NCBI GenBank assembly: GCA_021203185.1
Contig: JAJQBR010000127.1
Span: 1 to 54,860, forward strand
DNA from: Clostridiales bacterium
Lineage (GTDB): Bacteria; Bacillota; Clostridia; Oscillospirales; Oscillospiraceae
Length of the DNA: 54,860 nucleotides
Direction of reading: 5' to 3'
Below, piece after piece: positions 11,582 through 52,004 of the stretch (position 1 is the stretch's first letter; every line of letters begins with the position of its first letter). Below the pieces are notes generated by a model. That model did not search any database and was not told the DNA's origin. It saw only the letters and a program-made list of their open reading frames with translations. The position numbers and the translations under genes are program-made.

Positions 11582-12248
11582 TTGACAGTCATTCAAATCA
11601 TCACCTGAAATTTCCCGAAAATCAGCCCGGCGACCGGCCGGAAACGGTACGTAGGTAAGGGGTTCCCGCCGGAGAGCGGTCTCACGCCCCAGAGGAGATC
11701 TGCATAGAAGGGAAACGCCGCCGGAACGCTGCCGCGCCGGAGCAGCAATTTTTGATAACAAACGGAATTTTCATCAAATAGTCCTGTTTTTCGTTTTTAC
11801 CCGCATTTTCAACTGTGTTTTGTGACGAAAATCGACCGATTGTCGCCCCTTTATGCACGTAATACCTATTTTACACCAGGTCATAAAAATTTACAATAGC
11901 TGTTTGCTGGAAATGGACTGCCCAATATTCCAAAAATTCTGTTGTTTTGCGGCCGGTTTTTGTCGCAGAGGGTATAAAACATGGGAAAATCACTTTCAGA
12001 AAAGAAAGTCTGGGCAAGGCGCTCCTTCCAAACCGGAAAACGCCCCAGACGCCCTTTTCGCCCCAACAGACGATCCTTCATCACCTGTACCCTATCACCG
12101 TGAACACAGTTGATCGCTGTCCCGCTGGGGCTGGCGCTGTGCTTCTCCTCCCTGAATACAAGCGGGAAACCTCCTGTTGCAGCTATGGCACAAAATGGCA
12201 CCTCGTGTACCACGCAAAGTTTTTCTTTCCCCCACAGGGAAAGTGTGC

Positions 12249-12500
12249 TACAATAATGCGTACTGAACAAAGCCGCAAGCATTGAAAGGCGAGGCTTTTC
12301 ATGCCTTTCGGCTTTGTTCAAGTGCAAGATTTTTACGCAAGTAAGCGAAAAAATCTTGCACCCTCCGTTGACACTGCAAGCTGTGTCAACGGAGATACGC
12401 ATTGCAATAATGGCTGCATCTCATGAAACCAGCGTAAAACTGCCGGTTTCATGAGATTGCGCGGCTTTCGCCGCGCAAATAAACTGCATGGCGGTTTATT
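12249..12500 (+). ncRNA. Candidate structured RNA / hairpin-array element upstream of rarA (class not recognised)
   Basis: Six consecutive hairpins (left/right arms): 12264-12275/12309-12320, 12322-12338/12345-12361, 12363-12374/12383-12394, 12418-12430/12445-12457, 12457-12465/12470-12478, 12478-12487/12491-12500. Also a possible enclosing helix 12255-12262/12396-12403 and an extended -10-like TGCTACAAT at 12247-12254. Strand is a guess. Confidence 0.5.
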
Positions 12501-12550
12501 CAGCAGACATTACAATAGAACAAGCATTTCAGTGACAGGTGGTGACTTCT

Positions 12551-13870
12551 ATGAATGGCCGTCCGCTGGCGGATGAGATCCGCCCCCAGACTCTGGACGA
12601 CGTGGTGGGGCAGCAGCATATGCTGGGGCCAAACGGCGTCCTCCGGCGCATCATCGAGGGGGGTGCGGTACCCAATATGGTCTTTTACGGTCCCTCCGGA
12701 ACGGGCAAGACCACTGTGGCCAACATCATCGCCAACCGAACCAACAAGGCCCTCCACCGGCTCAATGCTACCACCGCCACCCTTTCAGATATCCGGGACG
12801 TGATTGCAGACGTGGACACCCTGCTGGCTCCCAACGGAGTGTTGCTCTACCTGGACGAGATCCAATATTTCAACAAAAAGCAGCAGCAGTCCCTGTTGGA
12901 GTTCATGGAAAACGGGAAAATCACCGTCATTGCCTCCACCACCGAGAATCCTTACTTTTGCGTGTTCAACGCGGTGCTGTCCCGGGCTACGGTGTTCGAG
13001 TTCAAGCCCGTGGAGCCGGAGGACGTAGAACCGGCGGTGCGCCGGGCCTTCCGCGCTCTGGAGGAGCAGGCGGGGCAAACCGCCGCTCTGGAGGACGGCG
13101 TGGTGGAGTATCTGGCGACCTCCTGCGGCGGCGACGTGCGCAAGGCCATCAACGGCGCGGAGCTGCTGTTTACCGCCGGGGTGAAGCGGGACGGACAGGT
13201 GCAAATCACTCTGGAGGACGCGGCGCTGCTGGCCCAGAAGTCCGCCATGCGCTACGACAAGGACGGCGACAGCCACTATGACATCCTCTCCGCCCTGCAA
13301 AAGTCCATCCGGGGCAGCGACCCGGACGCGGCGCTGCACTACCTGGCCCGACTGCTGGAGGCGGGGGATCTGGTTTCCGCCTGCCGTCGGCTGATGGTCA
13401 TCGCCTGCGAGGACGTGGGGCTGGCCTACCCCCAGGCGGTGAGCATCGTCAAGTCCTGCATCGACGCGGCCAATATGCTGGGCCTGCCGGAGGCCCGTAT
13501 TCCGTTGGGAGAGGCAGCCATTCTCATGGCAACCGCGCCCAAGTCCAACTCTGCCATCTGCGGCATCGACGCCGCTCTGTCCGACGTGCGCCGGGGCAAC
13601 TACGGCCCCATTCCTGCCCATTTGATGGATTCTCATTATCAAGGCTCCAAGAAGCTGGGCCGGGGCTTGACCTACCAGTACCCCCACGACTTCCCCGACC
13701 ACTACACCCCCCAGCAGTATTTGCCCGACCGCATCAAAGACCGGGTCTATTATGAGTACGGGGACAACAAGACCGAGAACGCCGCCCGCGCCTACTGGGA
13801 GCGGGTCAAGGGGAAGTACGCCGATGGGAGCGTTCCCCAGGCAGATAAGCCGAATAAGAAACATTATTAA
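12551..13870 (+). CDS. rarA: Replication-associated recombination protein A (AAA+ ATPase)
   Basis: LADEIRPQTLDDVVGQQHMLGPNGVLRRII, FYGPSGTGKTTVANIIA, YLDEIQYFNKKQQQSLLEFMENG, and C-terminal YQGSKKLGRGLTYQYPHDFPDHYTPQQYLPD. Confidence 0.96.
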   Translation: MNGRPLADEIRPQTLDDVVGQQHMLGPNGVLRRIIEGGAVPNMVFYGPSGTGKTTVANIIANRTNKALHRLNATTATLSDIRDVIADVDTLLAPNGVLLYLDEIQYFNKKQQQSLLEFMENGKITVIASTTENPYFCVFNAVLSRATVFEFKPVEPEDVEPAVRRAFRALEEQAGQTAALEDGVVEYLATSCGGDVRKAINGAELLFTAGVKRDGQVQITLEDAALLAQKSAMRYDKDGDSHYDILSALQKSIRGSDPDAALHYLARLLEAGDLVSACRRLMVIACEDVGLAYPQAVSIVKSCIDAANMLGLPEARIPLGEAAILMATAPKSNSAICGIDAALSDVRRGNYGPIPAHLMDSHYQGSKKLGRGLTYQYPHDFPDHYTPQQYLPDRIKDRVYYEYGDNKTENAARAYWERVKGKYADGSVPQADKPNKKHY

Positions 13871-13950
13871 GAGCTGTATTAAGAGCTATTAGTTGTTAGC
13901 TTTTAGCTATTAGTAACGAGTTTTCAGCGAATGGCTAATAGCTAAAATAG
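13868..13950. repeat. Short heptad-repeat element (AGCTAAT family), copy E1
   Basis: Left arm ...aagagctattagttgttagcttttagctattag..., right arm ...atggctaatagctaaaatag; near-palindromic. Confidence 0.7.
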
Positions 13951-13967: not shown

Positions 13968-14200
13968 GTATTTTTGCCCTAAATAGTATAAGTTTCCCAC
14001 AGAGAACCATCGTTTGGTAACTGACCACCCCTCTCGCCTCCGCCGTCAAGCGGCACTTCTGCCTTCAAGGGACACTTCCGAAGCTGCGCTTCTCCCTGCG
14101 CTGCGTTCCTTGCCCTGAAAGGGGAGGTGGTATGGTGTAAGCCGCCGTGACGGAGGGGGTTCTCTGATGTCACTAGCAAGGCTGAGTAAAAAGGTCAACC
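13968..14200. repeat. GC-rich palindromic intergenic repeat with conserved flank, copy B2
   Basis: tttttgccctaaatagtataagtttcccacagagaaccatcgtttggtaactgaccacccctc is close to the reverse complement of 17900-17970; contains ccgccgtcaagcggcacttc. Confidence 0.75.
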
Positions 14201-14220
14201 GTAAAAGACAGCAGCTCCTG

Positions 14221-14250
14221 GCTAACAGCTAAGAGCTAATAGCTAATAGC
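14221..14250. repeat. Heptad-repeat (AGCTAAT family) half element, copy E2
   Basis: gctaacagctaagagctaatagctaatagc. Confidence 0.7.
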
Positions 14251-44926: not shown

Positions 44927-48280
<3,354 letters not shown>

Positions 48281-48380
48281 TCACGGTGCGGCAGTGTGGA
48301 GACCTGTCGTAATGCGGATCGCTCTATACGGGCGGACGTGAGGCGGCCGTAGCGGAGGCTGGGTCGTTAGAGCCGGTACT

Positions 48381-49535
48381 ATGTCTGAAGTTTTATTGAA
48401 GGATCTGAAGAAAGTCTATGACAACAAGGTGACTGCTGTTCACGATGTCAACCTGCACATCGCGGACAAGGAGTTCATCGTCCTGGTCGGCCCGTCCGGC
48501 TGCGGCAAGTCCACCACCCTGCGTATGGTCGCCGGTCTGGAAGATATCTCCGGCGGCGAGCTGTACATCGACGGCAAGCTGTGCAACGACATCGCTCCCA
48601 AGGACCGCGATATCGCCATGGTTTTCCAGAACTACGCGCTGTATCCCCATATGTCCGTTTACGACAACATGGCTTTCGCCCTGAAGCTGAAAAAGACCCC
48701 CAAGGACGAGATCGATAAGAAGGTCCGCGAGGTCGCCGAGATTCTGGACATCACCCAGTACCTGGAGCGCAAGCCCAAGGCTCTGTCCGGTGGTCAGCGT
48801 CAGCGTGTCGCCATCGGCCGCGCCATGGTTCGTGACCCCAAGGTCTTCCTGATGGACGAGCCGCTGTCCAACCTGGATGCCAAGCTGCGTAACCAGATGC
48901 GGGCGGAGATCATCAAGCTGCGTAAGCGCATCAACACCACCTTTATGTATGTTACCCATGACCAGACCGAGGCCATGACCCTGGGCGACCGGATCGTCAT
49001 TATGAAGGACGGTTTCGTCAACCAGATCGGCGAACCTCAGGATCTGTTCAACAAGCCGGTGAACCTGTTTGTGGCTGGTTTCATCGGTATGCCCGTGATG
49101 AACTTCTTCGACAACTGCAAGCTGGAGCTGAAGAACGGCGTTTACTATGCCAACATGAAGGGTGTCTCCTTCAAGCTGGACGACTTCCAGCAGAAGGCTC
49201 TGAAGCAGAACAACCAGCAGCCCTGCGACATCATCTGCGGCGTCCGTCCCTGCCATGTCACCATCGGCGAGGGCGACCTGAAGGCCAAGATTGAGGTTTC
49301 CGAGATGCTCGGCTCCGAGGTCAACCTCCACGCCGACTGCGAGGGCGACGAGGTCGTCATGGTTATCCCCACCGTCGACCTGACTGTGGACGTGTCCATG
49401 GGCGCCACCGTCAACTTCACCACCCAGCCCCGGCTGATTCAGCTGTTCGACAAGGCCACCAGCAACAACCTGATCTGGTACGATGCTGAGTCCGCCGCTG
49501 CCAACGCTCCTGTCAGCAAGACCTACGATTTCTAA
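48381..49535 (+). CDS. ABC transporter ATP-binding protein, MsmX/UgpC type
   Basis: [78 protein letters not shown] domain. Confidence 0.95.
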
Positions 49536-51755: not shown

Positions 51756-52004
51756 TGTAATGGCTTTGATGGGAAGGAGTACGCGCCCTCCCCTGTTTTG
51801 CAGAGAGCGGCCGACTGGTGAAAGGCCGCAGACAGGCGGCGCGGAAAGTCGTCCCGGAGTTCTGTCTCTGAACCGTGCAGTAGGAGACGGCGGCGCCCAC
51901 CGTTATCGGGTTTGAGTGCGGGGCAAGGTCGCCCCGAATTCAGGTGGTACCGCGGAAAAGCGCCCTTTTCGCCCTGAACAATTTGTTGTTCAGGGCGTTT
52001 TTTG
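51756..52004 (+). promoter_or_regulatory. T-box leader (tRNA-Val responsive)
   Basis: AGAGAGCGG...GGTGAAAGGCCGC, T-box motif AGGTGGTACCGCG at 51942-51954, terminator cgccctgaacaatttgttgttcagggcgtttttt at 51970-52003, valS directly downstream. Candidate specifier GTC at 51848-51850. Confidence 0.92.

Follow-up and report, generated by a model that had tools for sequence, protein, structure and literature searches.

A probable MITE of the IS5 type with an elaborate conserved fold upstream of rarA in a Clostridiales genome

Short mobile elements with stable folds

Among the bacterial MITEs, Correia/NEMIS, ERIC, RUP, BOX and QMITE are described as having structured transcripts (PMC10969869, PMC2229807). 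Such elements resemble the one analyzed here in being short, non-autonomous and intergenic, with end repeats, stable folds and a possible effect on the expression of neighboring genes, and differ from it in sequence, ends and target. REP/REPIN sequences are dispersed extragenic palindromes of 20–40 bp with tags such as GTAG (PMC3733652, PMC3116915). The present element also consists of dispersed extragenic palindromes but forms a 256-bp unit of six hairpins with target duplications, and its ends (AATG...CAT) set it apart from a class defined by a single 20–40 bp palindrome with a GTAG or CGTC tag. IStrons (PMC4227781) are similar in that they are mobile and that their RNA could lessen the damage of insertion, and differ in their group I intron, none of which is detected in the element with Rfam.

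Insertion sequences (IS) of the IS5 family, NF033578 group, share with the element the ends TAATGNNTRCTGAAYAA (TAGGGTCTACTGAAAAA in one branch), a 6-bp TANNNT duplication and one arm of hairpin 2. They encode, however, a transposase of 477–518 amino acids, whereas the MITE has no transposase and carries five other hairpins; given that it encodes no ORF, the element is a derivative of such an IS at most. In the open-access library searched, no description was found of an element that combines two tandem three-hairpin domains with covariation throughout the order and with TA-N2/3-T duplications at promoters; what it offers on MITEs, structured repeats and IS5-derived MITEs (including PMC10969869 and PMC2267715) are general reviews and other families, none of them a match.

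The copy at rarA and its dispersed relatives

The window, a contig of 54,860 nucleotides from a Clostridiales bacterium, contains between a minus-strand glycosyltransferase gene and rarA (12249–12517) a hairpin array that represents a single, complete copy of a mobile DNA element, about 256 bp long and apparently not described before. The boundaries of this copy (AATGCG...GACAT; 12255–12510, on the plus strand like all features below unless stated otherwise) follow from the end-to-end alignment of copies from other sites and from empty sites; as the initial annotation had it, no ORF belongs to the element. The left terminal inverted repeat, AATGCGTACTGAACAA with a T before it (12255–12270), agrees both with the reversed right end and with the termini of an IS5-type transposon, and the right one (12494–12510, minus strand; ATGTCTGCTGAATAAAC when read in reverse) likewise matches IS5-type transposon ends. 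The copy is bracketed by the target duplication TACAAT, at 12249–12254 on the left and, as supported by the empty sites and by direct-repeat scoring, at 12511–12516 on the right. The gene whose promoter was invaded is rarA (12551–13870), which encodes an AAA+ ATPase and starts with an ATG at 12551 after AGGTGG; the left TACAAT is also the −10 hexamer of its presumed promoter (TG-C-TACAAT). The extended −10 motif noted initially, TGCTACAAT, is real, and the TACAAT within it belongs to the pair of direct repeats that flank the element. The sequence CAATAATG, which had been seen twice, represents the target duplication plus the left end in one case and an internal domain junction in the other.

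When congeners were searched with the joined flanks, this locus was found empty in five of them (GTGTGCTACAATAGAACA), with a single TACAATA at the point of insertion, and empty sites with one target copy were found for about 20 further loci. Across the family, the ends of the copies are inverted repeats (left, TAATGCGTACTGAACAAA; right, reversed, TAATGTCTGCTGAATAAA), and the direct repeats are perfect at 68 of the 91 scorable independent sites (6 bp at 55 sites, 5 bp at 13), comprising 24 different sequences, all of the form TA-N2/3-T; as T and A are common to ends and targets, the transition from repeat to end can be placed only to within one or two bases. The duplications and the empty sites are established observations; the transposase, for its part, would recognize inverted ends (TAATGNNTRCTGAAYAA) some 17 bp in length and insert at TA-N2/3-T(A), duplicating 5–6 bp. 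The initial suggestion of a mobile-element end was correct as to mobility but too narrow, the array being a whole element.

With 256 bp, the element lies below the 500-bp limit for prokaryotic MITEs and has neither an ORF nor a transposase gene of its own; its terminal inverted repeats (ATGCGTACTGAACAAA / ATGTCTGCTGAATAAA) are within the usual range of about 4–30 bp, perfect target repeats and empty alleles are observed, and it is dispersed and multicopy. The new family is a MITE of the IS5 type with an unusually elaborate and conserved fold that has often entered −10 boxes, and the copy at rarA is, with high probability, a full-length member that an IS5-type DDE transposase of the NF033578 group would have mobilized in trans. 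Neither target duplications nor terminal inverted repeats are expected of IS200/IS605 elements. Mobilization through single-stranded DNA by an HUH system of the IS200/IS605 or REP/RAYT kind, for which the hairpins would serve as recognition sites, would account for an element dominated by hairpins and without strand bias but is very improbable in view of the clear target duplications, the terminal inverted repeats and the match of the ends to a DDE transposon. An IS200/IS605-type MITE, a class without target duplication, is likewise at odds with the 5–6 bp duplications.

The genome that harbors the window contains two full copies, the second at 97% identity, and several partial ones, and nearly complete copies with 74–91% identity reside at unrelated places in related genomes; several other genomes contain 10 or more copies, so that homologues away from rarA, a check proposed at the outset, turned out to be numerous. 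Covariance model searches detect copies in 12 of the 32 genomes of the genus, in 29 of 151 genomes of the family (23 of the 106 sampled genera) and, patchily, in 23 of 394 genomes of the order, from several families. In the class outside the order, copies are rare; those in two genomes (G771 and G828) again fold as a hairpin array with the GTGCAAGGTTTTT hairpin. A pattern scan places the named hosts in the Oscillospiraceae and related groups (Flavonifractor, Pseudoflavonifractor, Intestinimonas and Oscillibacter, along with many MAGs); the element was not seen in viral contigs with the exact pattern or in phage and plasmid records with blastn. Nearly all full copies are 255–271 nt long, target repeats included, and short derivatives exist as well, namely 75–77-bp forms that consist of one hairpin and both ends (L074, L408:2490–2575) and forms of 120–175 bp. 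Solo element ends are found in front of genes; in two unrelated genomes, they precede Rrf2/IscR-like genes (L040, G000:C52:23838–23941; L420:8207). Two other repeats are apparent in the vicinity of rarA. Several copies of a TTAGCTATTAG-like motif follow the gene (13880–13950 and 14220–14250) and seem to form a separate small repeat family, and a GC-rich stretch at 14030–14140 (GTCAAGCGGCACTTCTGCC, reverse AAGTGCCGCTTGACGGC), with similar sequences in the flanks of L039, L062, L063 and L065, recurs at other loci in the genus and is another dispersed repeat.

This distribution contradicts a role at stalled replication forks, which had been suggested on account of RarA. The domains resemble four-way junctions and rarA is adjacent in the window, as would suit a DNA structure that acts together with this protein in replication or recombination; yet only one of the 93 independent sites, together with its orthologue in one congener (G027), adjoins rarA, the remaining sites lie at unrelated genes, and rarA of five congeners lacks the element, which makes such a link extremely unlikely.

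Fold and covariation

The predicted RNA fold of 12230–12520 has an energy of −144.6 kcal/mol, compared with −78.4 ± 4.9 kcal/mol in 200 dinucleotide shuffles, none of which is as good (z = −13.4); for the opposite strand, z = −12.5. All six hairpins of the initial annotation are present where it placed them, and its 8-bp closing helix, P1 (AATGCGTA, 12255–12262, with TACGCATT, 12396–12403), is part of the minimum-energy fold. A second closing helix, P2 (AATGGCTG, 12409–12416, with CAGACATT, 12504–12511), which had been missed, encloses hairpins 4–6, so that the architecture is one of two tandem domains, each consisting of a closing stem and three hairpins. Domain 1 (12255–12403) contains H1 (12265–12319) with a nested stem inside, H2 (12322–12361; GTGCAAG...CTTGCAC), an arm of which is, in many copies, common to the leader of the IS transposase gene, and H3 (12364–12393); domain 2 (12409–12511) contains H4 (12419–12456), H5 (12458–12477) and H6 (12478–12500). 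The junction between the domains (12404–12408; family consensus including the borders, CATTGTAACAATG) resembles two abutting element ends (CATTG-TAA-CAATG), as if two units of three hairpins each had given rise to the full element.

In the 90 copies aligned to covariance model R2 (the genome surveys employed model R1), standard pairs account for 94.7% of the 8140 cells, and two-sided changes occur in 76 of the 92 pairs, compared with 43.8 in shuffled alignments and 34–44 with the partners slid (894 cells against 223), with the caveat that this alignment was fitted to the structure and is biased towards it. Two-sided changes are already seen in 36 of 93 pairs in a sequence-only MAFFT alignment of 21 copies. 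The long-range helices are kept as well: in P1, the arms of which are 133 nt apart, 96% of the cells are paired family-wide and seven of the eight pairs show two-sided changes, and in the outer part of P2, with arms 87 nt apart, three of the four pairs do. These alignments show that compensatory change has preserved the fold, with its two domains and six hairpins, in different genera while the sequence of the stems shifts. The outcomes named in advance as speaking against the initial proposal were not encountered: homologues are many, their stems are maintained, and an Rfam match is absent. Specifically, cmscan against Rfam gave no hit to the element at gathering score and no credible one below it, which disposes of 6S RNA, one of the identities considered initially. 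Elsewhere in the window, Rfam identifies a T-box leader (RF00230, 133 bits; 51757–51970, plus strand) and a malK-I RNA (RF03069, 126.6 bits; 48209–48386, plus strand).

The covariation could, in principle, be a by-product of template-switching correction of palindromes in a mobile element, with the fold itself lacking a function, and the many symmetric changes within near-perfect hairpins, as well as the absence of strand bias, are what such a process would yield. However, template switching at palindromes is not a ready explanation for the long-range helices, which covary too, and the length and the number of hairpins are constant across families, so that this origin of the pattern appears rather unlikely. 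G-T and A-C mispairs are about equally frequent (223:212, among mostly Watson-Crick pairs), a ratio that suggests that neither strand is favored, with no sign of selection on one RNA strand. The proposal of a new structured RNA is borne out in part: the structure is strongly conserved by covariation, but a strand preference was not found. Most likely, the fold is kept because folded DNA, or a fold available on either strand, would aid movement or the tolerance of insertions.

Probable transposase partner and promoter context

Sequence comparison identifies an IS5-type transposase (NF033578) as the likely mobilizing enzyme. By way of a partial transposase sequence next to a solo element end in one genome (G105), an intact IS was located in a sister genus (G561; L445:1453–3013). 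It is about 1.56 kb long and has a 477-aa transposase that scores 415 bits against NF033578 (cut-off 275). The ends of this IS, TAATGATTACTGAACAATG and TAATGTATCCTGAATAATA, flanked by the duplication TACGTT, each match the corresponding left or right end of the MITE at 15 of 17 positions and share with it the C/T difference between left and right (CTGAACAA/CTGAATAA), and a stretch of 18 nt, CAAGTGCAAGGTTTTTGC, is common to the leader hairpin of its transposase gene and the H2 arm of several MITE copies. In this leader (L445:2892–2960), the −10 box of the transposase gene is directly followed by the hairpin, which adjoins the Shine-Dalgarno site; this hairpin is a homologue of MITE hairpin 2 and may restrict translation of the transposase. 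Another IS of the same NF033578 group (G133) has TAGGG-type ends, with TATCTT on both sides if two contigs represent one copy. An NF033578 gene was not found in the genome that harbors the window (98.5% complete) or in most of the MITE-rich genomes; movement in trans is therefore deduced from the shared ends, and the copies in these genomes may be relics or may have been moved by an undetected relative. Two other candidate partners were rejected: a DUF772-type transposase in the left end of one copy (L417) has ends of its own (AAAAGGGGYTGTCTCA) and belongs to a different IS, which either entered hairpin 1 of that copy or took its place (L417:1232–2130), and the STAS-like (DUF4325) gene that separates two copies in G105 does not encode a transposase.

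A subset of the direct repeats are −10 hexamers. The triplet TTG is located exactly 17 bp upstream of TANNNT at 23 of the 93 independent sites (16 on the right, read inwards, and 9 on the left, against about 2 at other spacings), that is, in 25 of 186 flanks, compared with 2–3% of background TANNNT sites (5-fold; Fisher 4e-9). Gene starts within 150 nt that read away from the element, scored by a Shine-Dalgarno test given that ORF-based orientation is unreliable with overlapping frames in GC-rich DNA, are present on the left at 40 and on the right at 27 of the 93 sites, versus 10% in controls. At some sites, the element-free reading is a textbook promoter, such as TTGACG-17-TATAAT-SD-ATG (L050) or TTGTCA-17-TATGAT (L147), both conserved in element-free congeners. 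Many copies have thus entered promoters. Active targeting is unsupported, as insertion sites are no more often promoter-like than TANNNT sites just upstream of genes (13.4% vs 11.7%, p = 0.35), and promoter entry may follow from an intergenic TA-N3-TA preference or from later selection. Because the duplication rebuilds the −10 hexamer at both sides, the host promoter would survive, and its transcripts should extend into the element. In the case of rarA, TG-C-TACAAT, the presumed extended −10, is preserved by the left repeat; in the empty allele, it lies about 36 nt from the ATG. A transcript that starts from this retained −10 would add a folded leader of about 262 nt to the rarA mRNA.

In an alternative reading, the family is first of all a non-coding or cis-regulatory RNA with structure, a leader riboregulator under selection as RNA, which happens to spread. 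The strong covariation, the −10 box and the Shine-Dalgarno site that often bracket the copies, and the opposite placement of the −35-like match and the gene start in 14 of the 18 cases where each is confined to one flank (p = 0.047) are in its favor. However, promoter-like flanks occur on either side (18 left and 25 right of 93), so that RNA would come from either strand, a single RNA strand should favor G-U over the A-C mispairs that are equally common here, and the neighboring genes have no evident common function; selection primarily on an RNA is thus improbable. For the MITE, a more specific proposal is advanced tentatively: the six-hairpin, two-domain fold, as DNA of either strand or as RNA, might be a working part that is read by the transposase or the host machinery, and insertion into −10 boxes, preserving the host promoter and turning the element into a folded mRNA leader, might have allowed spread through promoters without gene silencing.

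In many bacterial MITEs, little is conserved apart from the ends. In this element, by contrast, the stem sequences change freely, yet the elaborate fold is kept, and the length hardly varies, in gut Clostridia of different genera and families. Such a pattern would be difficult to account for if the fold were of no consequence for movement or tolerance. The analysis also yields a repeat family and a covariance model for the annotation of Oscillospiraceae genomes. Landing in −10 hexamers and rebuilding them is a simple, testable route to the low-harm occupancy of promoters and the rewiring of 5′ leaders.
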